The translations under genes and the position numbers were made by a program. A stretch of 64,000 nt of DNA from Daejeonella sp. H1SJ63. Lineage in GTDB: Bacteria > Bacteroidota > Bacteroidia > Sphingobacteriales > Sphingobacteriaceae. The number at the start of each line of letters is the position of its first letter. Position 1 is the stretch's first letter. The stretch is from NCBI RefSeq assembly GCF_029360775.1, contig NZ_JARKMZ010000005.1, positions 76,464-140,463 of the forward strand. Reading direction: 5' to 3'. The notes under the pieces were generated by a model. The model was not told where the DNA came from. It did no database searches and worked only from the letters and a program-made list of their open reading frames with translations. Positions 29,868-64,000 of this stretch are shown here, piece after piece.

Positions 29868-31163
29868 TTAGGTTAAGCTCTGAAACTGTACAGGCTTCAT
29901 TCGCGAAGTGAGGATATGTATAATAAACCAAGCTATTAAATAAGCAAAGCCACAAATGATAAATATGATGTTATAGCCTGCTGTAATATTTCCGGCCAGT
30001 TTATAATAATCAAGTATAAAGCCTACCAATAAGGGGAAAAAAGTAGACCCGATGGAACCCGTCATTCCCCCAATTCCTACCACTGAACTTACTGCCTTTT
30101 TGGGAACCATGTCTGAAACAATGGTAAAAATGTTGGAGCTCCATGCCTGATGGGCAGCAGCAGCAATGCTTATAATTCCTACCGCAACCCAGATATCCGT
30201 TGCATACCTGGCAAGAATGATCGGTAATACACTGATTGCAGCCACAAGTAATGCTGTTTTTCTGGCTTTTAATATTGGCCAGCCCTTCCTGATGAGATAA
30301 GATGATAAATATCCTCCGGCAATACTGCCAACTGTGGTTGCTGAATATACTATAACCAGATGCAGACTTGGCTTTTTCAGATCGAGATTAAAAGTGCTTG
30401 AGAAATAAGACGGCAGCCAGAACAGGAAAAACCACCACACGGGATCCGTTAAGAGTTTTCCGATAATAAAGACCCATGTTTGTTTTATGGAAAGCAGACG
30501 ACGCCATTTGATGGAACCTGTATGATCGGAATCGGGCTCAGTGTCGCTATGAATAAAGTTAAACTCCTCTTCACTCAATTTCTTATGCCGGGACGGAATC
30601 TCATAAAATAACCACCATAATATTAACCAAACGAAGCCGAGGACACCGGTAATAATAAATGCTTCCTGCCAGCCATAAAATCCCAATAACCATGGTACCA
30701 TGATCGGGGCTACAACGGCTCCGATACTGGTACCCGAATTAAAAATACCGGTTGCCAGGGCACGTTCCTTTTTAGGAAACCACTCTGCCACTGCTTTAAC
30801 AGCAGCCGGGAAATTTCCAGACTCACCCAGACCCAGTAAGCCCCTCACTATTCCAAAGCCCAGAGTACTTTTTACAAATGCATGCAGAATAGCTGCTACA
30901 CTCCAAACTATAATTGATATTGAGTAACCTATCTTGCTGCCTATCTTATCGATAATATTGCCGAAAATTATGAAGCCGAGGGCATAACAGGCAGCGAAAG
31001 CCATGACAATATTTGCATAATCAGATTCAGTCCAGCTAAATTCCATCTCTAAAGTTGGTTTAAGAAGACCAATAACCTGTCTGTCAATATAGTTTATAGT
31101 GGTAGCGAGAAAAAGTAAACCGCAAACTACCCACCGATGATTGCCAAATGAAGTCTTGTTCAT
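29868..31163 (-). CDS. MFS transporter of the hexuronate (ExuT-like) type
   Basis: The 431-residue, 12-helix carrier has ATTINYIDRQVIGLLKP in helix 1, RGLLGLGESGNFPAA and AEWFPKKERALATGIF, which are typical of the anion:cation symporter group including ExuT and GudP. Its place downstream of uxaB-uxaA and the uxaC scar supports uptake of a hexuronate such as glucuronate or galacturonate. It is a full-length paralogue of the carrier at 44997. Confidence 0.9.
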   Translation of the reverse strand: MNKTSFGNHRWVVCGLLFLATTINYIDRQVIGLLKPTLEMEFSWTESDYANIVMAFAACYALGFIIFGNIIDKIGSKIGYSISIIVWSVAAILHAFVKSTLGFGIVRGLLGLGESGNFPAAVKAVAEWFPKKERALATGIFNSGTSIGAVVAPIMVPWLLGFYGWQEAFIITGVLGFVWLILWWLFYEIPSRHKKLSEEEFNFIHSDTEPDSDHTGSIKWRRLLSIKQTWVFIIGKLLTDPVWWFFLFWLPSYFSSTFNLDLKKPSLHLVIVYSATTVGSIAGGYLSSYLIRKGWPILKARKTALLVAAISVLPIILARYATDIWVAVGIISIAAAAHQAWSSNIFTIVSDMVPKKAVSSVVGIGGMTGSIGSTFFPLLVGFILDYYKLAGNITAGYNIIFIICGFAYLIAWFIIHILTSRMKPVQFQSLT

Positions 31164-31189: not shown

Positions 31190-31430
31190 CTATATTTTGT
31201 TAGAATTTGAGTTTCCTGCATTATGATAACAAATATCCTGAATGATCTCCATTCAGTCGGGCCTTCGTAAGATTCCCAAAATTTAGATTTACAGCTATCT
31301 GATCAGGAGGGAGACAATTATGATATTGAATAATCGACACTATTTCCACAAAATCATGGTAAAGTGCATGCTCTGCTTCGGACTTCAACAGGAGGTTTTG
31401 GTCTAAGAATGATTTCATTTCCATATTCAA
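31190..31430 (-). pseudogene. uxaC: uxaC (glucuronate isomerase) remnant with internal deletion
   Basis: From 31418 the frame reads MKSFLDQNLLLKSEAEHALY and then YHNCLPPDQIA, NLTKARLNGDH, which follows the N-terminus of UxaC (glucuronate/galacturonate isomerase) for about 55 residues. It then runs into a stop at 31221. In another frame the same bases continue as EIIQDICYHNAGN and stop at 31190, matching the C-terminal end of UxaC, where DICYxNAxxYF is usual. So roughly 390 codons have been lost, joining the ends at about 31240-31250. The metal motif HxH has also changed to HNC. The remnant keeps the normal uxaC slot between uxaA and the transporter. Confidence 0.8.
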
Positions 31431-31491: not shown

Positions 31492-33144
31492 TCAAAGCGA
31501 AATCCCCCTCTTCCATGGAATAAAGTCATCCTGTCTGTGACGCACAGCAGCTACCTCAGTCTCACCGCTGGCCACACTAATCACGTATTCCAGTATACGT
31601 TCTCCGGCTTCGGCTATTGTTTCCTCCCCCTCAATGATAGAGCCTGTATTAATATCGATAATGTCCCTCATACGATTAAATAAAGTTGTATTGGTTGCTA
31701 TTTTTACAACAGGCACAATAGGGTTACCGGTAGGAGTACCCAGTCCAGTAGTAAACAATACAATATTTGCTCCCGAAGCTACTTCCGCAGTAGTAGATTC
31801 TACGTCATTACCCGGTGTACATAAAAGATTCAGTCCGGGTTTAATTACTTTTTCCGGATAATCAAGTACGGCGACTATCGGAGATGTACCTCCTTTTTTT
31901 GCTGCACCTGCCGATTTGATCGCATCAGTGATCAGGCCATCCTTGATATTCCCCGGAGAAGGATTCATATCAAAACCGGATCCTGCTGCAATGGCCTGGC
32001 TGTTATAATTTTTCATCAGGTTAGAAAATCGTTCTGCCTGATCGATACTTACACAACGGTCACTGAGATCCTGTTCGACTCCACAAAGCTCGGGGAATTC
32101 AGAAAGTATGACTGATCCGCCCAGAGCAACAATCATATCCGATGTATAGCCTATTGCAGGATTTGCTGAAATTCCTGAAAATCCATCAGAACCACCGCAT
32201 TCCAGACCAATACAAAGCTTACTCAATGGTGCTGGTCGGCGCACAGACCTGTTCGCCTGAATCAACCCTGCAAGGGTTTGCCTGATAGATAAAGAAAATA
32301 AATCTGCTTCAGTACCAATATCCTGTTGTTCAAGAATATAAAGTGGTTTATCAAATTGCGGGCTTCGCTTCTCAATTTCGGCCTGCAGCATCGAAACCTG
32401 TGCATTTTGACAGCCCAGGCTGAGAATAGTGGCTCCTGCCACGTTTGAATGTGTAATATAACCGGCAAGAAGACCGCAAAGTGTTATCGCATCCTCTCTG
32501 GTACCGCCACATCCCCCATTGTGTACCAGAAACTTGATTCCATCAACATTTGGAAATACGCGTTCCTGACTTTCCTCTGAAGTTTCAAAATATGAGGAAG
32601 CATTCAGAAGCGCATCTTCATTCTTTCCATCCCTGATCATACCAATCAGCTTCAAAACATCCTCCTGATATTTTTTCTTTCGGCCATATCCCAGGGGTGT
32701 TATAAGTGCTTCCTGCAAAACCTCAATATTCCTGTTCTCACAAAAAACCATGGGTATAACAAGCCAGTAATTTGCGGTACCAACGCTGCCATCAGACCGG
32801 TGAAACCCATTAAATACCGATTTTTGAAATTTAGAAACATCAGGAGACTGCCAGGAAGTTTTACGCGAGCGTGTTTCAAATTGATTTGCTGCATGTTTAA
32901 TATTCGCAGTAGTAATTAAGCTCCCTTTATCAAGATCTGTTTGCGTAATGCCCACAAGTACCCCGTACATAATGATTTTACTTCCCTCAGGCAGCATTGC
33001 TACCGTAAACTTATGCTTCGCCTGAATATCATCCTGAAGTACTATTTCTTCACCCGCGTAAGTAATAATTTCGCCCTTGCGTAAATCTTTTAAAGCCACG
33101 ATTACATTGTCATCGGGATGAACTTTTAGAATATTCTGTTTCAT
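31492..33144 (-). CDS. uxaA: altronate dehydratase
   Basis: UxaA dehydrates D-altronate to 2-keto-3-deoxygluconate. The 550-residue protein has an N-terminal SAF-like domain (about 1-95) and a UxaA core with GFHRSDGSVGTANYW, HNGGCGG, GLECGGSDGFSGI and CTPGNDVEST. It follows uxaB by 14 nt and precedes the uxaC remnant, giving the classical hexuronate operon order. Confidence 0.94.
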   Translation of the reverse strand: MKQNILKVHPDDNVIVALKDLRKGEIITYAGEEIVLQDDIQAKHKFTVAMLPEGSKIIMYGVLVGITQTDLDKGSLITTANIKHAANQFETRSRKTSWQSPDVSKFQKSVFNGFHRSDGSVGTANYWLVIPMVFCENRNIEVLQEALITPLGYGRKKKYQEDVLKLIGMIRDGKNEDALLNASSYFETSEESQERVFPNVDGIKFLVHNGGCGGTREDAITLCGLLAGYITHSNVAGATILSLGCQNAQVSMLQAEIEKRSPQFDKPLYILEQQDIGTEADLFSLSIRQTLAGLIQANRSVRRPAPLSKLCIGLECGGSDGFSGISANPAIGYTSDMIVALGGSVILSEFPELCGVEQDLSDRCVSIDQAERFSNLMKNYNSQAIAAGSGFDMNPSPGNIKDGLITDAIKSAGAAKKGGTSPIVAVLDYPEKVIKPGLNLLCTPGNDVESTTAEVASGANIVLFTTGLGTPTGNPIVPVVKIATNTTLFNRMRDIIDINTGSIIEGEETIAEAGERILEYVISVASGETEVAAVRHRQDDFIPWKRGISL

Positions 33145-33158
33145 TCTTATAATAGTCC

Positions 33159-34688
33159 TTAATTTATTTTTTCAACTGCATTTTTTACACCGTCTTTTTC
33201 AATATTCCGGAGATAGCCTCTTACCGCTTCTACAAAACCGGGGAGTAGAGACAGGTCTGTGCCCCATATATCGTAATTTGCGAGAACATTGGACACTACT
33301 TCATCCGAATTGTGATTAGTCCACTGATCTGAATAATAAAGTGCCCAATCATCCTCTATTTTGTAGCTTCTATTATTGCATTGACCAAAAAATGTTCCGT
33401 CTGTTCCATCTGAACGCATGAACCGCAGATATGCTGCAAAGCCAAATGCAATATTCTCCGGAACCCTGTTAAAATTTTTATAATAGCAAAGAAGCACAGG
33501 TACTACCCGCATATTAAGCTTCATTGTATAATTTACGCTGATACTAAGCCACTGATGCCTGATCTGCGGGTTTCGGAACCTGTCGAGGACCTTATCCGAA
33601 AACTGCAATGCAATTCCGGGATCGACAGGGTATGGAATAGCAGGAGCAAGATTATCCCGCATGAGAGATGAAATGAATTCCTGCGTCAATGGATCCTCCA
33701 TTGCGTCACATACGGTTTCCATTCCGGAAAGGAATGCCACAGCACAGCTTAAGGTATGCGTTCCGTTGAGCAGTCGTAATTTCAGCTCCTTATAAAGAGT
33801 TATATCTTCGGCAATAACAACTCCAGAATCTACCTGTTCAAATGAAAGGATTTTCTTTAACTCTTCATTACCCTCGATGGCCCAGAGCCGGTAAACTTCA
33901 GCAAAAACAAGCAGCTCATCACGATACCCCAGCTCATCTTCCATTTTCTGCATTGTAATTTCATCTGGTTTTCCCGGAACAATACGATCTACAAGAGTAT
34001 TGCAGAACGTATTGCTCTCAAGCCATTTCATAAACTCCTTTTCCAGGTTGTTTTGTTCTGCCAGTTTAAAAACAATGTCTTTCAGCTTAGTTCCGTTATC
34101 TGAGATCAATTCAGTTGGGAGAATTACTAAGCCCTTACTTTCATCCCCATTAAATACTTTATACCGGTGATATAATACAGCAAGCAGTTTACCGGGAAAG
34201 GATACGGGAGGTACCGTACTGATATCATCCTGTATAAGCACGATGCCCGTTTCAGTTGTATTGGAGATAACAATCTCCAATTCCTTTGATGCTGCCACAT
34301 CAAGAATAGCCATCCATTCAGTTTGTGCGGTAAGCACTCTGCTCACTGCAGAACAAATCAGGTTCTCTTCTATTTTCCTCCCATCTTCAATACCCCGTAT
34401 TCCAATAGTGTAAAGCGAATCCTGGTTTTTAAAATCATCAGTACCCCCTTTCTGTGTTGATTTCACAATCACAACACGGCCGTTAAAGATCCCCTGCCTG
34501 TTTGCTTTATCAATAAAATAATCAGGCAATCCGCGCAAAAGTACGCCGGTGCCAAATTGAAGAACTTTTTCAGGCAGATCAAAGGCACCGGCCAGAGGCA
34601 CGATGAGTTTATCAGAAGGTTTAATATTATCTAAATTCTGTTTTCTCAAAATCATATCATCCTGTATTTCTGGTCCGGAACCGGGCAT
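33159..34688 (-). CDS. uxaB: tagaturonate reductase
   Basis: UxaB reduces D-tagaturonate to D-altronate with NADH. The 509-residue protein belongs to the mannitol dehydrogenase family: LQFGTGVLLRGLPDYF binds the cofactor, and ISNTTETGI, LLNGTHTLS (catalytic region) and NCNNRSYKIEDDW follow. An internal ATG at 34655 (MILRKQNLDN) is an equally reasonable start. It is the first gene of the uxa operon and is divergent from the LacI-type regulator at 35116. Confidence 0.93.
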   Translation of the reverse strand: MPGSGPEIQDDMILRKQNLDNIKPSDKLIVPLAGAFDLPEKVLQFGTGVLLRGLPDYFIDKANRQGIFNGRVVIVKSTQKGGTDDFKNQDSLYTIGIRGIEDGRKIEENLICSAVSRVLTAQTEWMAILDVAASKELEIVISNTTETGIVLIQDDISTVPPVSFPGKLLAVLYHRYKVFNGDESKGLVILPTELISDNGTKLKDIVFKLAEQNNLEKEFMKWLESNTFCNTLVDRIVPGKPDEITMQKMEDELGYRDELLVFAEVYRLWAIEGNEELKKILSFEQVDSGVVIAEDITLYKELKLRLLNGTHTLSCAVAFLSGMETVCDAMEDPLTQEFISSLMRDNLAPAIPYPVDPGIALQFSDKVLDRFRNPQIRHQWLSISVNYTMKLNMRVVPVLLCYYKNFNRVPENIAFGFAAYLRFMRSDGTDGTFFGQCNNRSYKIEDDWALYYSDQWTNHNSDEVVSNVLANYDIWGTDLSLLPGFVEAVRGYLRNIEKDGVKNAVEKIN

Positions 34689-35115: not shown

Positions 35116-36129
35116 ATGGGGCATGCCGTTACGATAAAAGACATTGCAAAAATTTTAAATGTTTCAGTATCAACTGTATCAAGAGCACTTAGGGATACTT
35201 ACGATGTTAACCAGGAAACTAAAAAAAGAATACTTTCCCTTGCTGCAGAGTTAAATTATAAACCCAATTTCAATGCTACCGGTCTGGCGCAGGGAAGCAC
35301 TCATAACATTGGGGTAGTACTCCCTTTCATTACAAACTATTATTTTTCAACAGTCATAACCGGAATTCAGGAAGTGGCATATGACAACAACTACAATATC
35401 ATTTTATTTATCACAAATGATTCTTCTGAAAGGGAGTTGTCAATTATCCAAAACCTATCCCTTTCCCGTTTAGATGGATTATTGGTATCAGTTTCTTCCA
35501 ATTCAGATTCCTGTAATCATTTCCAGGAAATAATTGATGAAGGTACTCCAATAGTATTTTTTGACCGTATAGCCAGCAATATTGACACATCGAAAGTGAT
35601 GCAGGGTGATTATAAGGGTGCATTCGAAGCTGTAGAACATCTGATTGAAAGTGGCTATACTAAAATTGCCCATATCGCAGGTCCAAAGGGATTAGACTTT
35701 ACTGAAAAAAGATTAAACGGATACCTTGATGCATTAAAAAAACATGGATTGGCAGCCAGAGAGGAATGGATTATCTTCTCCGGATTTTCCCAGGAATACG
35801 GCGAGACTGATACCTATCAGCTTTTACAATGTGAACAAAGACCTGATGCGATTTTTGCGGTAAATGACAGGAAGGCAATAGGGGCTATTGTAGCACTGAA
35901 AAATAATGGAGTAATTATTGGTAAAGAGATTGGTGTGATAGGTTTTACTGATGATCCGATATGCACTATAATTTCTCCTTCAATAACTACGATTGCCGAA
36001 CCGGCCTTTGAGATTGGAACAACAAGCTGCGATCTGCTTTTAAAACACATCAATAAGAAAAATTTCAATCCTCAGGAGATCATATTACCCGGCAAACTAA
36101 TGGTCAGGGATTCAACCAGAAGAAATTAA
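35116..36129 (+). CDS. LacI-family transcriptional regulator
   Basis: The 337-residue protein has an N-terminal helix-turn-helix (VTIKDIAKILNVSVSTVSRA) and hinge, followed by a periplasmic-binding-protein-like effector domain (NIGVVLPFITNYYFSTVI, GLLVSVSSN, FAVNDRKAIGAI). It is transcribed away from the uxaB-uxaA operon and probably represses it in response to a hexuronate metabolite. It might also act on the CGATAACGTTATCG sites further along the window. Confidence 0.92.
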   Translation: MGHAVTIKDIAKILNVSVSTVSRALRDTYDVNQETKKRILSLAAELNYKPNFNATGLAQGSTHNIGVVLPFITNYYFSTVITGIQEVAYDNNYNIILFITNDSSERELSIIQNLSLSRLDGLLVSVSSNSDSCNHFQEIIDEGTPIVFFDRIASNIDTSKVMQGDYKGAFEAVEHLIESGYTKIAHIAGPKGLDFTEKRLNGYLDALKKHGLAAREEWIIFSGFSQEYGETDTYQLLQCEQRPDAIFAVNDRKAIGAIVALKNNGVIIGKEIGVIGFTDDPICTIISPSITTIAEPAFEIGTTSCDLLLKHINKKNFNPQEIILPGKLMVRDSTRRN

Positions 36130-41480: not shown

Positions 41481-43469
41481 ATTTTAACGCTTTATTAATT
41501 TAATTGAAAATGGTCTCTCCCCGCTGATTGGATATCGTTCGTAGCTTCTTAAACTCCTGCTGGTATGATCTTAACTCCTCTTCACTTATCTTACCGCCCG
41601 ACATCGTTAACGGATTTATCATCCTGACATTCTTACCGCTCAGCGCAGCTGCCAGCGATACATCTCCCCAGTTAAGAAATCCAGGAAGGTGGATACCCAT
41701 ACTGAAAAAATCTACCGAACCCTGACTATCAAACTGGTAACTCAGTGGAGCATCCCGAAGAATAATTTCATCCACATTCCCTCCCGTAGCTGCTAAAAAC
41801 AAACCTGCAAGACCTGACTCTTTGCTGCCGTCCATACTCACCTTCTGAGCATGATACTTTGTCCTGAGGAATTCACTAAGCACCCCAAGCTCCTTTACCC
41901 ATTCTCCTAAAATCGTTTTCCCAAGCCATAACTCAGACCGAGACTGCGTATGCAGCATCATGCTCCTGTTCCCTGTATTTTCTTTTGTGGATGATGCCTC
42001 CCCCGTGCCTGATAAATCTGCAATAACAATGCCCTGACCTTTTTTCTTCAATTCAGTAATCAGTTCCGCTGAAATCGCTTTCTTCCCCCCGGGATTGCTG
42101 ATGATGACATATCCCAAAGATTTGTTAGCCGGAGCCATGTGTAATACCGGAATCAGCTTATCATCAGAGCTTTCCAAAGCCAGGCGGTCCCAGCCTCCAT
42201 CACTGGTATACTGATGTACTTTCCTCAGTCCTGAACGCTCATTGATCCGTAAGATATTCCGTAATTCCATTTGCTTCTCAGATGCATCAACTGAGCCTGC
42301 ACTCAAAAAGGCTGATCTTAGTTCTTTTCCTCGCTTTTCACAGTAAGCTGCCGTAGTAATGACGGCAGGATCACGTTTGCCGATCGGGTAAACCATGAGT
42401 TGTTGATTTGGCAAAGTTTCAAATGGAATTTCTTTTTTAGGAGCTCCTGTTCCAATACCTTTCAGGTGAAGGTCAAACCATCCAAGCATCGCTTCCCGGT
42501 CCTCAGACCAATAACCATGGGTTTTGTCGAATACCTGGGAACTGATATTATTTTCTGCGCCAAGCATTTCAAAGACAGGCCTGGCATTATTAAATGTGCG
42601 CTGCATTTCAAAAGGGAAAAAAGAAGGAGCAGCATCCTGTTTATGATTACACATCTTGATTGCCCGCGGAGCAACCAGACCAAGAACGCCTGCTTCCTCA
42701 GTAAAGGTCAGTCCATCCGGCAACAGCTCGCAAATGCAATTGGAACGCATCACATACGACTCAAAAGTACCTACACTAACTACCGGCAGAGCAGCTTTAA
42801 TGCGCTCGTCTATCGCTGCCAGCCACATCGTTTGGTTACCCCCGCCACTGGCTCCGGTTGCGCCTATATTTTTAGGATCAACATAGGGAAGTGAGCTGAG
42901 TAAATCCACTCCACGCATATTATCAGAGATCTGAACACCTGTCAGAGACTCGCCGATATTCAGAAGGGAAGCTCCCAGGTTGGCCCCGTGATATTCAAAT
43001 ATACCATGGACTGAAGTTCTTTCCCCGGCTCCCCATGGGTCAATAGTCAGACATACATACCCATTAAGAGCCAAACTATGCCCAACAGGCTGCGGGCCGT
43101 CTATATCACTTTTGCCTTTTCTCCAATGGCCAAGCATATTGATTACAGCAGGAAATGGCCCTTTGCCTTCAGGAACATATAAATTTGCAGTGGCATAAAC
43201 TCCCGGACGTGTTTGAAAGGAAATGTTCTTAATTCTGTACCCTTTCATCTGAACTGAGCCCGTCTCCTTTATATCCAAAGGCAGATCATGGTTTACAATG
43301 AGGCCCGTCTTCTGTATAATGTTCTTTCTTAGCCCCGACCGGTATGTTTCCCACTCCTTTGCATTATCAGGCAATTGATGAGTCCCGAATTTCAGAATCG
43401 CCTGGCCTCTAAGCCTGCTCTCAAGCAGATCAGCATGATTTCTGGTCAAAACAGATGGAAGGCTGTCTG
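41395..43469. repeat. large direct repeat, copy 1 (paired with 61941-64000)
   Basis: About 2.07 kb here matches 61941-64000 in the same orientation. By eye the match is about 99% outside two divergent patches at roughly 42486-42665 and 42985-43150. The left edge lies inside the Tat leader of the GH109-like gene. The right edge may run past 43469, since the second copy is cut by the window. Confidence 0.9.
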
Positions 43470-43578
43470 TAATGAAAGCGGTTCCTTTAATATCAATTTG
43501 ATTTTTAAATCTGTAAACAGGTGAAGAATAAATATGTATAAGTGAGAACAGAGCACAAAATAATACAACTCGTTTCAT
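41500..43578 (-). CDS. secreted two-domain alpha/beta-hydrolase, acetylxylan-esterase-like (copy 1)
   Basis: The 692-residue protein has a Sec-type leader (MKRVVLFCALFSLIHIYSS) and an N-terminal alpha/beta-hydrolase with nucleophile Ser244 in GATGASGGG, an oxyanion-side segment MLGHWRKG and the catalytic His354 in DKTHGYW. The second half (about 450-692) looks like another alpha/beta-hydrolase fold in which the nucleophile elbow reads DGSKESG, without the usual GxSxG serine. It resembles acetylxylan esterase (CE7-like) and Abhydrolase_7 proteins, so removal of acetyl or other esters from a glycan is likely. It leads the unit with GH109 copy 1 and nagB. Confidence 0.82.
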   Translation of the reverse strand: MKRVVLFCALFSLIHIYSSPVYRFKNQIDIKGTAFITDSLPSVLTRNHADLLESRLRGQAILKFGTHQLPDNAKEWETYRSGLRKNIIQKTGLIVNHDLPLDIKETGSVQMKGYRIKNISFQTRPGVYATANLYVPEGKGPFPAVINMLGHWRKGKSDIDGPQPVGHSLALNGYVCLTIDPWGAGERTSVHGIFEYHGANLGASLLNIGESLTGVQISDNMRGVDLLSSLPYVDPKNIGATGASGGGNQTMWLAAIDERIKAALPVVSVGTFESYVMRSNCICELLPDGLTFTEEAGVLGLVAPRAIKMCNHKQDAAPSFFPFEMQRTFNNARPVFEMLGAENNISSQVFDKTHGYWSEDREAMLGWFDLHLKGIGTGAPKKEIPFETLPNQQLMVYPIGKRDPAVITTAAYCEKRGKELRSAFLSAGSVDASEKQMELRNILRINERSGLRKVHQYTSDGGWDRLALESSDDKLIPVLHMAPANKSLGYVIISNPGGKKAISAELITELKKKGQGIVIADLSGTGEASSTKENTGNRSMMLHTQSRSELWLGKTILGEWVKELGVLSEFLRTKYHAQKVSMDGSKESGLAGLFLAATGGNVDEIILRDAPLSYQFDSQGSVDFFSMGIHLPGFLNWGDVSLAAALSGKNVRMINPLTMSGGKISEEELRSYQQEFKKLRTISNQRGETIFN

Positions 43579-44996: not shown

Positions 44997-46319
44997 TCAC
45001 AATTTGGCCTTTTCCATCTTAGGCGTTAGAAAATGTATGATAATCCAGGCCAGAAGAAAAGAACTTCCGCAAATCAGAAAAATAATGTTATAGCCCGCTA
45101 TAATGTTGCCGGAATTTTTATAATGATCAAGAATAAAGCCAATAAACATAGGGAAAAGCACACTGCCTATTGCACCAACCATACCTCCCAATCCAACCAC
45201 AGAGCTGATTGCTTTCTTCGGGAACATGTCCGGAACTATAGCAAAGATATTAGCACTCCATGCCTGATTAGCTGCCACAGAAAGACTTATTAATGCTACA
45301 ACAAGCCACATATCGGTAGTGTATCTGGTTGCGACAATAGGAATTACACAAAATGCAGCAACCAGTAATGCTGTTTTTCTGGCTTTATATACCGGCCATC
45401 CTTTTTTGATCAACCAGGACGAAAGATAACCTCCGCCAATACTTCCAACCATAGTGCCGGCATAAACAAAAACAAGCGGTAAACTGGGTTCCTTCAAGTT
45501 AAGATTAAAATACGTGGTGAAATAAGAAGGGAGCCAGAACAAAAAGAAAAACCATATTGGGTCTGTAAAAAATTTACCGGCAATAAAGGCCCAGGTTTGT
45601 TTCAACCTCAGTAACTGAGCCCAGCTTACATTGCCTGTATATTCTTCTGTGGTTTCCTCTGCATCACTATGTATATAGTCAAGCTCACTCTTGCTTAAAC
45701 GTTTTTGATTTGCCGGGGTAAAATAAAAAATACGCCATGCAATTAACCAGGCGAAACCTAATGAGCCCGTAATCAGAAAAGCAGCCTGCCAGCCATAAAC
45801 AGCCAGCAACCATGGAACCAGGATAGGACCTACACAAGCCCCTATATTAGAGCCCGAATCTAATATCCCAATTGCCAGAGCCCGTTCTTTTTTAGGAAAC
45901 CATTCTGCAACAGTTTTCACTCCTGCCGGATAATTTCCAGATTCGCCTAAACCAAGCAAGGCCCTGACTGCTCCAAAACCAAAAGTGCTTCTGACAAAAG
46001 CATGAAGCATAGCAGAAATACTCCACACAGTTACTGAAATTGTATATCCAAGTTTTGTTCCTATTCTGTCAATTACTTTTCCGTACAATAATTGTCCCAG
46101 GGCATAACAGGCCGTAAATGCCATAACAATCCTGCTATAATCGGTCTCAGTCCAGTTAAAAACTACCTCCAGTTCAGGTTTCAGCAGGCCAAAAATTTGC
46201 CGGTCAATATAATTTATTGTGGTGGCAGCAAACAAAAGAAACGCAATGAACCAGCGGTAATTTCCAACTTTCATTCCGGACCTTTCATAGTGAGTCTTTA
46301 CAGGCATATCCTTATTCAT
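44997..46319 (-). CDS. MFS transporter of the hexuronate (ExuT-like) type, second copy
   Basis: The 440-residue, 12-helix protein shares the motifs FAATTINYIDRQIFGLLKP, RALLGLGESGNYPAG and AEWFPKKERALAIGI with the carrier at 29868 and is similar throughout. It ends the unit 48841-47578-46366-44997, so it likely imports a product released by those hydrolases, probably an acidic sugar or sugar derivative. The gap to the NIPSNAP gene contains TGCAGCCG/CGGCTGCA inverted copies (44892 and 44958). Confidence 0.9.
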   Translation of the reverse strand: MNKDMPVKTHYERSGMKVGNYRWFIAFLLFAATTINYIDRQIFGLLKPELEVVFNWTETDYSRIVMAFTACYALGQLLYGKVIDRIGTKLGYTISVTVWSISAMLHAFVRSTFGFGAVRALLGLGESGNYPAGVKTVAEWFPKKERALAIGILDSGSNIGACVGPILVPWLLAVYGWQAAFLITGSLGFAWLIAWRIFYFTPANQKRLSKSELDYIHSDAEETTEEYTGNVSWAQLLRLKQTWAFIAGKFFTDPIWFFFLFWLPSYFTTYFNLNLKEPSLPLVFVYAGTMVGSIGGGYLSSWLIKKGWPVYKARKTALLVAAFCVIPIVATRYTTDMWLVVALISLSVAANQAWSANIFAIVPDMFPKKAISSVVGLGGMVGAIGSVLFPMFIGFILDHYKNSGNIIAGYNIIFLICGSSFLLAWIIIHFLTPKMEKAKL

Positions 46320-47577: not shown

Positions 47578-48774
47578 TTATTTCCAAACTACGTCATCAT
47601 TATTTCTGATGCCATTGACAGGAAAAGGATGCTTGTCATCAAAAGGATAAAGCGCTTTTTGATCCTCAATCACAATCATTTTTTCATTAAGGGTTCCATC
47701 CGCGTTCAGGGCTTTACTAAGATCGAGCCCCAGATGTTTAGCAAGGAATGGGTAAGCTGCAATGCGTTTGTTTTCATCATAGCCATGTTTATCATTAGGG
47801 AGATGGACATTCTCAACGTTATTGGGTTTACCAAGCAAATTGTAGATGTATTTCTCATGAGGATATTCAACTTCAGGATTGTATTTTGTCCAGTCGTCGC
47901 CATCCGAAACCAGCAGCATAGGCCGGGGTGCGGCAAGAGCGGCAATCTCAACATTGTTGGTTTGAAAATTGGGACCTTTATGAATGGGCATACCACTTTC
48001 GCAAATACATCCCCCGAAGAAATGAGCTGAGACCATTACTACCGGTACAGAAACCGCAATGCGGTCATCGACAGCAGTAAGCAAAAAAGTCTGAGTTCCT
48101 CCGCCTGATGCACCCGTAATTCCAATCCTTTTAGGATCGGCGCCCATCATAAGCAGGAAGTCGACCCCACGTATGCTATTCCAGAGCTGTAATTTTAATG
48201 CTTCCGGATGCTTGTGCACCCACCCAAGTTCCTCCATCTGACCATATCCAACCGCATCATAGGCCCAAACCATAGCTCCCATACGTGCCAGCGCTGCAAA
48301 TCTTTTCTGTGCATCCGGACGGTAACGGCCAACATCCCCAGGTTTTGTCCAATGTCCGTGGGTATTTAATATCCCCGGCAGCATACCCTTTGCATTTGTC
48401 GGGGTATATAAACTTCCCGTAACATATACTCCGGGAAGACTTTCAAAGGCTACATTTTGTACCTGGTAACCATCAAAAACACGTTTTTCTCCAAAAATAG
48501 GATTAAGTGGCCCTTTTTCAGGATATTTTTCTAAACCAGCGCCTTTCAATATATGTTCCCGAATCTGGTTTGCCCGATTTTTCCATGCTGCGGAAGTAGT
48601 GTATGATTGGCGCATCTGGTTTAAAAAAGATTTACCTTCTTCCGGAGTCCAATGGGCCCCTACGCATAACATTGACCCGGAAGTCTTTTGAGACGGTTTT
48701 TCCTGCGAAACAGAAGTTTCGAAAGAAAAAAGCAAACCGCATAAAATCAGCAAAGTGTTTGTTGTGATCTTCAT
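47578..48774 (-). CDS. secreted acetylxylan-esterase-like alpha/beta-hydrolase
   Basis: The 398-residue single-domain protein has a Sec leader ([18 protein letters not shown]) and the nucleophile elbow TGASGGGTQ with Ser223, a HGHW oxyanion segment and a C-terminal DKHGYDENK carrying the catalytic His. It corresponds to the first domain of the longer esterases at 41500, 59939 and 62037. It lies between the Tat hydrolase at 48841 and the amidohydrolase, in one transcription unit. Confidence 0.84.
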
Positions 48775-48840
48775 AAGTATTTGTGAATTTATAACCGCTT
48801 TGGTAAGCCGTTTAATTATTAAATTATTTCCAGATTACAA

Positions 48841-50133
48841 TTACCCTTTTAACCATTGATCAAACCAATCGAAAGCCTCCTTTTGCATATTCTTATCAAA
48901 CTTATGTGGTCCCGGATAGTATGAGCATTTAAATTTGTTTTCTGCATTTGCCTTTTTGTATACTTCTTTTAGGATCTTATCCGCACTCTGCATTTCAGAA
49001 AGCGTATATAGTTCATCCTCTGAATCATTAAGTACCAATGTTGGAAGCGGAACCCTGAGTCCAAGGATTTCAGGAAAGTCCATTTCCTTCGGAAGAACAG
49101 GAACATAGGTCATCCAGGTATGAGATACTGAATGATTGAGTATAAAATCCTTCCATGTTGTCATAAAACCTACGCAAACTGCACATTTAATCCTTGGATC
49201 CAGGCCTCCCATAAACACTGTACGCATACCACCTCCTGATAAACCACCACAACCTACCCTGTCTGTATCTACATCTTCACGGGCACATAATACATCCAGT
49301 GCCTTTTGGTCCTCAGCAAAAAAGACTCCCGGCCAGGTAGTTCCTGCACTAAACAAGGATTTAGCCATTGTATGCTCATGCTGAGCAGCCCAATCATTAT
49401 AAGTCTTAATGTTCTCAGGACTCTCCGGATTCTGATCATTTAACCCATTGCGAAGCTTAGCCGGAACGTCCTGTAGCATAACCCTGCGGCTTGCAAATGG
49501 AAATGCATCTGATACAAGAACCACATACCCGCGTTTAGCAATTTCATTTGCCCAGGCAAAACCACTGTAATACTCTTTCTGATGAGCTTCCATAACCGGA
49601 TGCTGCTTATCAGATGTCTTTGTAATTTTCCTTGTACCAAAATATTTGTTCGCACCATGATCGTGAAATGCAAGAATAGCAGGCAGCTTCCCTTTAGCAT
49701 TTGCAGGTTTAAGCAAGATTGCATCAGTTGGACGGCCATAAGGCAATTGCCAGCTAAGTTCTTCAATATGAAGACCATCGTATTCGTATTGCTTCTTTAC
49801 AGTCACTTTAGGAGTACCTCCAATATCAGGAATACCCAGACGGTCATGAATACGCTCATTTGCTGCTGTTTTCCATTTATCAAGATCATTCCATTTAGTA
49901 TTCCTGAAAGAATAAGGCGGAACCTTATTTTCAATTAATGAATTTGCCCATGGACCATAAAGCCCTATAACACTTTGACCCTTTAAATCCATTTTTTCAT
50001 CATCTGCAATCGGGGAGTTTGAACCTTGTTTCGAATCATTACAAGATGCCAAACCGGTCAACATACTACTGCCAACAGCCCCTATTCCTGCCATGCCGGC
50101 AACTTTGATAAAATTTCTGCGATCTTTTTTCAT
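48841..50133 (-). CDS. Tat-exported alpha/beta-hydrolase (dienelactone-hydrolase/CE7-like)
   Basis: The 430-residue protein begins MKKDRRNFIKVAGMAG, a Tat-like leader ending in LASC, so it may be a Tat-exported lipoprotein. The hydrolase core has HDHGANKYFG, the nucleophile elbow GGLSGGGMR with Ser299 and a C-terminal GPHKFD carrying the probable catalytic His. It is the first gene of the unit that ends with the MFS carrier at 44997, and a LacI-type operator lies 145 nt upstream. Confidence 0.82.
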   Translation of the reverse strand: MKKDRRNFIKVAGMAGIGAVGSSMLTGLASCNDSKQGSNSPIADDEKMDLKGQSVIGLYGPWANSLIENKVPPYSFRNTKWNDLDKWKTAANERIHDRLGIPDIGGTPKVTVKKQYEYDGLHIEELSWQLPYGRPTDAILLKPANAKGKLPAILAFHDHGANKYFGTRKITKTSDKQHPVMEAHQKEYYSGFAWANEIAKRGYVVLVSDAFPFASRRVMLQDVPAKLRNGLNDQNPESPENIKTYNDWAAQHEHTMAKSLFSAGTTWPGVFFAEDQKALDVLCAREDVDTDRVGCGGLSGGGMRTVFMGGLDPRIKCAVCVGFMTTWKDFILNHSVSHTWMTYVPVLPKEMDFPEILGLRVPLPTLVLNDSEDELYTLSEMQSADKILKEVYKKANAENKFKCSYYPGPHKFDKNMQKEAFDWFDQWLKG

Positions 50134-59938: not shown

Positions 59939-62017
59939 CTATCCGTTTCCGTTAGCTGTATGATTCCAGGGATCTATTTGCCGCAAATTTTTAGAGGCAA
60001 GTACGCGGTAACAGTCGGGCAGATCAAAATCTTTCAGTACTCCGGGAAGTAATGTTGAAAGAGGCCAGTTATATTCTTCATTTTCAGCAATATCTGCATA
60101 GCTTGTAAGCGCATTTTTTAAAGTTATTTGTGCCACAGAGTCCGATAATAGTCCGGCAAAAGTGGCCGGGACCGCTCCCCATCCTTTTGCTATCAGATGT
60201 ATTTCTGTATGTCCGTATGATCGTAGCCAATCAATAACCCGCAGAACATCATATGTCTTTTGTCCCACATAAGGATAGTTAAACATATTGCTCTGAGCGG
60301 CATAGAAATAATCATTCCCATATGGTTTCCCGAAGTTATCACCGCATGTATTAGGTTTGGATTCTCCGATACCTCTTACATCACAGGCAAAAACTGCAGA
60401 GTTGGGTTCGTTAAGGATCAGTTCTCTAACTGAAGCATCATTACGAAGCTCATCGTCGGCCGAATGGTGGGAAACATATAATATGGCCCGCTTTAAACCA
60501 ACGGGTGGGCGGGAAAGAAGCACTTTGTCGCTTAACCTGTAAACTACAGTCAGGATCCCCGGTTCTGTTTCTAATGCGTAGGTAGCGGAAAATTTTTGAG
60601 GATAAAGGCGGTCAGACACCGGGCGTAAAATACGAAAGTTCGGTGCCCCTATAGACTGCGGGAACTTTAATACTGCTGCAACCGCTTTTTTCAAAGATTC
60701 TGCATCCAGAGGGCGCCTGTTCTTTTTCAATGATTCAGATAACTCTTTTGTAAATGAAAAGACTGTCCGGGCTTCAGATGCGCCTGCCTGTCCTTGTGCA
60801 ATACACCAAAGTGACCCTTCTTCCTCCAGGGTTAAGGCCGGTTCTGCTTTTATGGCCGTACTTTTAGTTGCCTTGTTAAACCATTCGTACATTGCTTCAC
60901 GATTGTGCTGCGAGTATCCGTGGTATTCAGGACCAATAAAAAGATTGGCATTTTGTTCGGCCCCCAGCAATTTGTAGAGATGCTTCATCCTTTTCAGGGA
61001 TATTTCTGCACCTCTTACATCAAAGTAATCTTTCTCCTGATCTAAAATAATAACCGGCTTAGGAGCCATAGCGGCAATAAAATCCGAATGGTCCAATCCC
61101 ATGCTTATGGCTGCGGGCGGGCATTGTTCAATATCAGCAGGCAATTCATTTTGAAGATTCTGGCCGAAACCAACAATAAAACAGCTGGGTGCTGCCATAC
61201 TAAGCCGGGATTCAACACCACATAACCATGTTGCCTGGGTGCCTCCTCCTGAATTTCCGGTAACACCAATTTGCTTTGCATCTACCTCAGGCCTTGTAAG
61301 CAAATAGTCGACACATCTTATAGCATCCCAGGTAAACCATGAACTTAAAGATTCTCCGCAAAGGACCATCTGGCTGCCTGCATAATTATGCTCAGGAACA
61401 CCAATACCCCGGCGCGGCTTAAGATCAGAGGAAAGGTATTGAACCCGCTCTCCCTGCCCGATCGGGTCAAAAATTAAAACTACATAACCCTTTCTTGCCA
61501 GACCCTGAGCAAAAGATTGATAGATGGGAGTAGCCTTACCCGGATCTCCATGGCCACAGGTGCCAACAACGGCAGGTAGCGGAAACTTCCGGTCTTTAGG
61601 TATATAAAGGTTTGCTGTCACAGGAAATCCGGGACGGCTATCAAAAATTATTTTTTCAATTTTATACGCATCACGGTCTATTGTCCCTGTAATACGGGCA
61701 TTCAATGGCGTTTTTTCAGGCCATGGACCAAAACATTTCTGAATTTTAGACCGAACTTCACGGACATAAGCTTCTGCATCACTTTTGGTATGAAGGCTGG
61801 CACGCCGTTTCTCAGACACCTGCTCTATTTCCCGGAAACGTCCTACGAAATATTCCTGTACCATTCGGGGAAAACGGTTAAGCGGACTTAATGAAGAAAC
61901 ATTATCAGCAACGATAACACCCTGTACTTCAACTTGTTTTGCATAAGCTGGTATAATACTTGCTCCTGTCAGACCAATACCGGCAAGTTTTATAAAATCT
62001 CTGCGATTGTTCTTCAT
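59939..62017 (-). CDS. Tat-exported two-domain alpha/beta-hydrolase, acetylxylan-esterase-like
   Basis: The 692-residue protein has the Tat leader NNRRDFIKLAG, shared with GH109 copy 1, an N-terminal hydrolase with HGDPGKAT, the nucleophile elbow TGNSGGGTQ with Ser256 and a His in PEYHGYSQHNR. The C-terminal half again resembles a hydrolase fold but has AKGWGA in place of GxSxG, so it is probably inactive. Domain plan equals that of the esterases at 41500 and 62037, but the sequence is well diverged from them. Confidence 0.82.
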   Translation of the reverse strand: MKNNRRDFIKLAGIGLTGASIIPAYAKQVEVQGVIVADNVSSLSPLNRFPRMVQEYFVGRFREIEQVSEKRRASLHTKSDAEAYVREVRSKIQKCFGPWPEKTPLNARITGTIDRDAYKIEKIIFDSRPGFPVTANLYIPKDRKFPLPAVVGTCGHGDPGKATPIYQSFAQGLARKGYVVLIFDPIGQGERVQYLSSDLKPRRGIGVPEHNYAGSQMVLCGESLSSWFTWDAIRCVDYLLTRPEVDAKQIGVTGNSGGGTQATWLCGVESRLSMAAPSCFIVGFGQNLQNELPADIEQCPPAAISMGLDHSDFIAAMAPKPVIILDQEKDYFDVRGAEISLKRMKHLYKLLGAEQNANLFIGPEYHGYSQHNREAMYEWFNKATKSTAIKAEPALTLEEEGSLWCIAQGQAGASEARTVFSFTKELSESLKKNRRPLDAESLKKAVAAVLKFPQSIGAPNFRILRPVSDRLYPQKFSATYALETEPGILTVVYRLSDKVLLSRPPVGLKRAILYVSHHSADDELRNDASVRELILNEPNSAVFACDVRGIGESKPNTCGDNFGKPYGNDYFYAAQSNMFNYPYVGQKTYDVLRVIDWLRSYGHTEIHLIAKGWGAVPATFAGLLSDSVAQITLKNALTSYADIAENEEYNWPLSTLLPGVLKDFDLPDCYRVLASKNLRQIDPWNHTANGNG

Positions 62018-64000
62018 ATTTTAACGCTTTATTAATTTAATTGAAAATGGTCTCTCCCCGCTGATTGGATATCATTCGTAGCTTCTTAAACTCCTGCTGG
62101 TATGATCTTAACTCCTCTTCACTTATCTTACCGCCCGACATCGTTAACGGATTTATCATCCTGACATTCTTACCGCTCAGCGCAGCTGCCAGCGATACAT
62201 CTCCCCAGTTAAGAAATCCAGGAAGGTGGATACCCATACTGAAAAAATCTACCGAACCCTGACTATCAAACTGGTAACTCAGTGGAGCATCCCGAAGAAT
62301 AATTTCATCCACATTCCCTCCCGTAGCTGCTAAAAACAAACCTGCAAGACCTGACTCTTTGCTGCCGTCCATACTCACCTTCTGAGCATGATACTTTGCC
62401 CTGAGGAATTCACTAAGCACCCCAAGTTCCTTTACCCATTCTCCTAAAATCGTTTTCCCAAGCCATAACTCAGACCGAGACTGCGTATGCAGCATCATGC
62501 TCCTGTTCCCTGTATTTTCTTTTGTGGATGATGCCTCCCCCGTGCCTGATAAATCTGCAATAACAATGCCCTGACCTTTTTTCTTCAATTCAGCAATCAG
62601 TTCCGCTGAAATCGCTTTCTTCCCCCCGGGATTGCTGATGATGACATATCCCAAAGATTTGTTAGCCGGAGCCATGTGTAATACCGGAATCAGCTTATCA
62701 TCAGAGCTTTCCAAAGCCAGGCGGTCCCAGCCTCCATCACTGGTATACTGATGTACTTTCCTCAGTCCTGAACGCTCATTGATCCGTAAGATATTCCGTA
62801 ATTCCATTTGCTTCTCAGATGCATCAACTGAGCCTGCACTCAAGAAGGCTGATCTTAGTTCTTTTCCTCGCTTTTCACAGTAAGCTGCCGTAGTAATGAC
62901 GGCAGGATCACGTTTACCGATCGGGTAAACCATGAGTTGTTGATTTGGCAAAGTTTCAAATGGAATTTCTTTTTTAGGAGCTCCTGTTCCAATACCTTTC
63001 AGGTGAAGGTCAAACCATCCAAGCATCACTTCCCGGTTCTCGGGCCAATAGCCATGGGTTTTATCTAAAACAAGATTGCTTATATTATTTTCTGCACCAA
63101 GCATTTTAAAGACCGGTTTGGTATTGTTAAAGCTTCTGAGCATTTCAGAAGATAGAAAAGTGGGATTATCAACAATAATGTTAGACATCTTGATCGCCCG
63201 CGGAGCAACCAGACCAAGAACTCCTGCTTCCTCAGTAAAGGTCAGTCCATCCGGCAACAGCTCGCAAATGCAGTTGGAACGCATCACACACGACTCAAAA
63301 GTACCTACACTAACTACCGGCAGAGCAGCTTTAATGCGCTCGTCTATCGCTGCCAGCCACATCGTTTGGTTACCCCCGCCACTGGCTCCGGTTGCGCCTA
63401 TATTTTTAGGATCAACATAGGGAAGTGAGCTGAGTAAATCCACTCCACGCATATTATCAGAGATCTGAACACCTGCCAGAGACTCGCCGATATTCAGAAG
63501 GGAAGCTCCCAGGTTGGCTCCATGATATTCATCTTTTCCATGTATTGGGGTCCTCTCACCGGCTCCCCAGGCATCGATATTAAGACATACATAACCATTA
63601 AGAGCTAAACTTTGACCAATTGCCTGAAAAGACTGATATAAACGCCCCCCGGGCCAGTGGCCATGCATAACAATTACAGCAGGAAATGGCCCTTTGCCTT
63701 CAGGAACATATAAATTTGCAGTGGCATAAACTCCCGGACGTGTTTGAAAGGAAATGTTCTTAATTCTGTACCCTTTCATCTGAACTGAGCCCGTCTCCTT
63801 TATATCCAAAGGCAGATCATGGTTTATAATGAGGCCCGTCTTCTGTATAATGTTCTTTCTTAGCCCCAACCGGTATGTTTCCCACTCCTTTGCATTATCA
63901 GGCAATTGATGAGTCCCGAATTTCAGAATCGCCTGACTTCTAAGCCTGCTCTCAAGCAGATCAGCATGATTTCTGGTCAAAACAGATGGAAGACTGTCTG
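61941..64000. repeat. large direct repeat, copy 2 (paired with 41395-43469)
   Basis: The second copy of the 2-kb repeat lies 20.5 kb from the first, same strand. Its left edge is inside the Tat leader of the hydrolase gene at 59939; the right edge is beyond the window. It is 6 nt shorter than copy 1, both losses falling in the divergent patches. Confidence 0.9.
62037..64000 (-). CDS. two-domain acetylxylan-esterase-like alpha/beta-hydrolase (copy 2, 5' end beyond window)
   Basis: The frame is open to the window edge and aligns with the esterase at 41500 from its residue 37 on, so only the leader is missing; an apparent TTG start at 63980 is internal. It keeps GATGASGGG and DKTHGYW. Differences from copy 1 concentrate in two patches, including VMHGHWPGG in place of NMLGHWRKG and SNIIVDNPTFLSS in place of CNHKQDAAPSFFP. 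The spacing of 19 nt to the following Tat gene equals that of copy 1. Confidence 0.85.
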   Translation of the reverse strand, partial: DSLPSVLTRNHADLLESRLRSQAILKFGTHQLPDNAKEWETYRLGLRKNIIQKTGLIINHDLPLDIKETGSVQMKGYRIKNISFQTRPGVYATANLYVPEGKGPFPAVIVMHGHWPGGRLYQSFQAIGQSLALNGYVCLNIDAWGAGERTPIHGKDEYHGANLGASLLNIGESLAGVQISDNMRGVDLLSSLPYVDPKNIGATGASGGGNQTMWLAAIDERIKAALPVVSVGTFESCVMRSNCICELLPDGLTFTEEAGVLGLVAPRAIKMSNIIVDNPTFLSSEMLRSFNNTKPVFKMLGAENNISNLVLDKTHGYWPENREVMLGWFDLHLKGIGTGAPKKEIPFETLPNQQLMVYPIGKRDPAVITTAAYCEKRGKELRSAFLSAGSVDASEKQMELRNILRINERSGLRKVHQYTSDGGWDRLALESSDDKLIPVLHMAPANKSLGYVIISNPGGKKAISAELIAELKKKGQGIVIADLSGTGEASSTKENTGNRSMMLHTQSRSELWLGKTILGEWVKELGVLSEFLRAKYHAQKVSMDGSKESGLAGLFLAATGGNVDEIILRDAPLSYQFDSQGSVDFFSMGIHLPGFLNWGDVSLAAALSGKNVRMINPLTMSGGKISEEELRSYQQEFKKLRMISNQRGETIFN

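Follow-up and report, generated by a model that had tools for sequence, protein, structure and literature searches.

The uxaC gene of the hexuronate operon in the window, by which we mean the whole 64-kb stretch of DNA analysed here, is an old internal-deletion pseudogene, while an intact uxaC homologue is present elsewhere in the same genome, on contig 12, where it adjoins the decayed remains of an exuT gene. The losses at the two loci are complementary, as the window operon has kept its carrier and lost uxaC, whereas contig 12 has kept uxaC and lost the carrier. We consider an ordinary reciprocal loss of redundant genes between two hexuronate loci to be the best and simplest explanation of this pattern, at a probability of roughly 0.88. 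The host genome is a 3.65-Mb draft in 56 contigs, assigned by its relatives to Daejeonella (Sphingobacteriaceae, Bacteroidota), and the window lies on contig 45 in our numbering.

On the minus strand of the window, the gene order is uxaB, uxaA, the uxaC relic and an ExuT-like carrier. The tagaturonate reductase UxaB (33159..34688, 509 aa; NF002969, 585 bits, above the cut-off) and the altronate dehydratase UxaA (31492..33144, 550 aa; PF20629, PF04295 and PF08666; 81% against its counterpart in the operon of Daejeonella sp. JGW-45) are intact, and so is the ExuT-like MFS transporter (29868..31163, minus strand, 431 aa), which matches PF07690 and scores 253 bits against TIGR00893, below the cut-off of that model. 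A LacI-family regulator (35116..36129, plus strand; PF00356 and PF13377) diverges from the operon and is a possible local repressor. At 44997-46319 lies another ExuT-like MFS carrier, which shares 65% identity with that of the operon, and three more full-length paralogues are located elsewhere in the genome (two on contig 21 and one on contig 12). The window also holds large open frames without a Pfam match at E <= 1e-10 (41500-43578, 47578-50133 and 59939-63980), which sit among Gfo/Idh/MocA oxidoreductases and GH109-type proteins.

According to the earlier note, the place between uxaA and the ExuT-like carrier holds a deletion scar of uxaC, and both ends of the gene were indeed found there, joined in order and with the frame lost; relatives carry an intact uxaC immediately 3' of uxaA. 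The N-terminal part (31242..31418, minus strand) matches PF02614 positions 1-59 with 48.6 bits and covers codons 1-59, through the residues GDH, rather than the 55 codons originally counted. Its homologous ATG lies at 31418, the frame is open from 31424 or 31418, and past the junction the ORF continues in a wrong frame until it stops at 31221. Beyond GATCAT, which encodes the last two residues of GDH, the codons CAG GAT ATT TGT TAT CAT AAT GCA spell QDICYHNA, a conserved C-terminal motif of UxaC, in a changed frame. This C-terminal part (31200..31241, minus strand) bears out the similarity to UxaC proteins that the note had asked to be checked, both in a DNA comparison and with a matrix built from 64 intact UxaC proteins, for which QDICYHNAGN at 31240-31211 scored highest among the window's roughly 128,000 six-frame positions (29.1 bits against 11.3 for the runner-up over 10 columns, and 22.4 against 3.6 over 16 columns). 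The relic tail aligns with the normal gene end, from which about 4 nt appear lost in an alignment read by eye, and the original-type TAA is kept at 31202-31200. In intact relatives the ends joined at 31241..31242 are 393 codons apart, close to the loss of about 390 codons first proposed, and with one base left here the deletion amounts to about 1,178 bp; with these codons absent and the frame broken, the window copy falls short of the full UxaC length of about 465 residues. A short shared sequence at the junction had also been suggested. At most 2 bp (TT) are shared in comparison with the nearest relative and none in comparison with the others, and microhomology cannot be established because the relatives differ at those bases.

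The relic has decayed beyond the deletion itself. Among the 21 N-terminal positions on which at least 95% of intact UxaC proteins agree, seven are changed (F9L, A16E, A24V, P28S, D31Q, H35C and W54R), and none of the 64 intact proteins breaks more than two. The DYHxH motif of the first strand, whose two histidines we take to bind the catalytic metal as in the amidohydrolase superfamily, reads QYHNC in the relic; the Asp and the second His are gone, although all 64 intact copies have D31 and H35. This loss of invariant residues implies an old pseudogene that has been unconstrained for some time, and not an assembly slip. Assigning the relic to one uxaC lineage by identity was uninformative, as 30-34 of its 59 residues are identical to many UxaC copies, and no reliable tree placement was obtained.

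Searched with PF02614, this genome yields exactly two matches, namely the window relic and an intact UxaC of 467 aa on contig 12 (48725-50116) with 684 bits and no stops. The latter scores above the NCBIfam cut-off for glucuronate isomerase (647.5 versus 387) and matches, over its length, two uronate isomerases of solved structure, 3iac and 1j5s. All four components sought for the isomerase pathway, UxaC, UxaB, UxaA and KDPG aldolase, were found; the genome further contains a second UxaA-type protein (contig 21, 89217-90857, 64%), a UxuA homologue and three KDPG-aldolase-family genes. On paper, the hexuronate isomerase pathway thus appears complete, and the window uxaC would be dispensable given the contig-12 copy.

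These findings bear on the most far-reaching claim of the earlier note, that in a strain without uronate isomerase glucuronate and galacturonate would be shut out and the operon retargeted to tagaturonate, fructuronate or altronate. In keeping with this proposal, the operon combines a defunct uxaC with apparently intact genes for uxaA, uxaB and the carrier, but the intact contig-12 uxaC sits in a vertically kept locus of the genus, and we regard retargeting as very improbable. With an intact UxaC and homologues of UxaA, UxaB, UxuA and KDPG aldolase in the genome, no substrate that bypasses the isomerase is required. Detours related to UxaC have been reported for the epimerase UxaE (PMC6353982) and for KduI in E. 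coli (PMC3578941), and these are likewise unneeded given the intact UxaC.

The contig-12 UxaC clusters with ten other Daejeonella copies (support 100/99). Its gene is preceded directly by a Crp/Fnr-like regulator and followed by Gfo/Idh-type oxidoreductases, as named from sequence reading, and the block is collinear in four other Daejeonella genomes (G001, G006, G009 and G019) with 71-92% for most genes. At the syntenic site, an intact exuT directly follows uxaC in all four, whereas the 594 bases after uxaC on contig 12 contain no more than dispersed fragments of exuT, which lie in several frames and are broken by stops. This internally deleted relic (contig 12, 50129-50571) retains residues 72-95, 309-385 and 389-428, and its best match is the uxaC-adjacent exuT of other Daejeonella (57-67%), compared with 43% for the window carrier.

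Under reciprocal loss, an ancestor would have possessed two overlapping loci, uxaB-uxaA-uxaC-exuT in the window and the genus-wide uxaC-exuT among Gfo/Idh oxidoreductases on contig 12, so that isomerase and carrier were duplicated and selection on one copy of each was relaxed. The window operon would then have lost uxaC when one internal deletion removed about 1.18 kb, point decay having preceded or followed this event, and the contig-12 locus would have lost exuT through internal deletions and stops. Against this reading, no species with both loci fully intact was found, so that the ancestor is itself a reconstruction, and its exact gene order is uncertain because the JGW-45 operon has no adjacent exuT; redundancy as the cause of the losses and the order of events are likewise part of this reconstruction. 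The function would now be split, with carrier, reductase and dehydratase encoded in the window and the isomerase on contig 12, whose UxaC presumably serves the window operon, the proteins working together, and galacturonate should still enter via the standard isomerase pathway. It is conceivable, albeit doubtful, that the paired loss was not neutral and that placing isomerase and carrier at separate loci under different regulation, one with a LacI-type regulator and the other beside a Crp/Fnr-like regulator, changes the timing of hexuronate use; if true, paired gene loss would have produced regulatory rewiring.

The operon might instead have been transferred in with uxaC already deleted, in which case the gene was lost in another lineage and not in response to redundancy here. 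Its patchy occurrence in the genus and its location at a different place from that of the JGW-45 operon would fit such a transfer, but in Daejeonella G006 a uxaB has been kept next to the same nagA (88% identical), a hint that the site predates this species, and the same scar was seen in no other genome examined. We therefore judge transfer unlikely, while according it some weight. A sequencing or assembly artefact in which two uxaC copies collapsed can be given almost no credence: although the assembly is a draft, the relic differs throughout from the only other uxaC copy, and collapse would not create substitutions at invariant sites and a short indel in the tail.

What is left of the open frame, about 67 aa, could also have been kept for a new role, as a small protein or as a leader, since no stop interrupts its N-terminal part ahead of the junction, which a perfect 7-bp hairpin (CTGAATG-GAGAT-CATTCAG, 31256-31238, minus strand) straddles. 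The loss of motif residues and other invariant positions argues against a retained protein, however, as does the fact that no homologous short form was found, and such a role seems highly improbable to us. Perfect stems of 7 bp turn up in the window at a rate of about one per kb, so that the hairpin is probably due to chance and was discarded as a terminator or attenuator; no excess of terminator-like sites was found either.

Taken together, the two loci are a compact case of complementary decay, each lacking the gene that the other has kept. The uxaC relic leaves knowledge of hexuronate metabolism unchanged, and it cautions that one broken gene in an operon does not prove a missing pathway step. 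Titles and abstracts of the literature yielded nothing directly relevant on uxaC pseudogenes, and a DNA search with the operon detected the same scar in none of the other Daejeonella examined. G006 (contig 71, 6067-8910) has only uxaB beside nagA, with neither uxaA nor uxaC, and the hexuronate operon may have eroded in more than one species.

The order uxaB-uxaA-uxaC, often with exuT downstream, is common in Sphingobacteriaceae and Chitinophagaceae. Operons of the type found in JGW-45, where uxaB-uxaA-uxaC is intact, and in Pedobacter gandavensis share this order with the window, and many have an ExuT-like carrier downstream; in the window, by contrast, uxaC is a deletion relic, and the kdgK-like and kdgA-like genes read between uxaC and exuT in the two relatives inspected are absent. 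Many Mucilaginibacter likewise carry uxaB-uxaA without an adjacent uxaC, so that it is normal for such an operon to lack a uxaC of its own, but unlike in the window no relic was detected after uxaA in these operons. The search for the same scar covered 17 other loci lacking uxaC after uxaA and revealed no relic. The enzymes and the route from galacturonate to 2-keto-3-deoxygluconate are those of the isomerase pathway of Escherichia coli (uxaCA-exuT; PMC6353982), whereas the E. coli genes are arranged differently and retain an intact uxaC within the operon.
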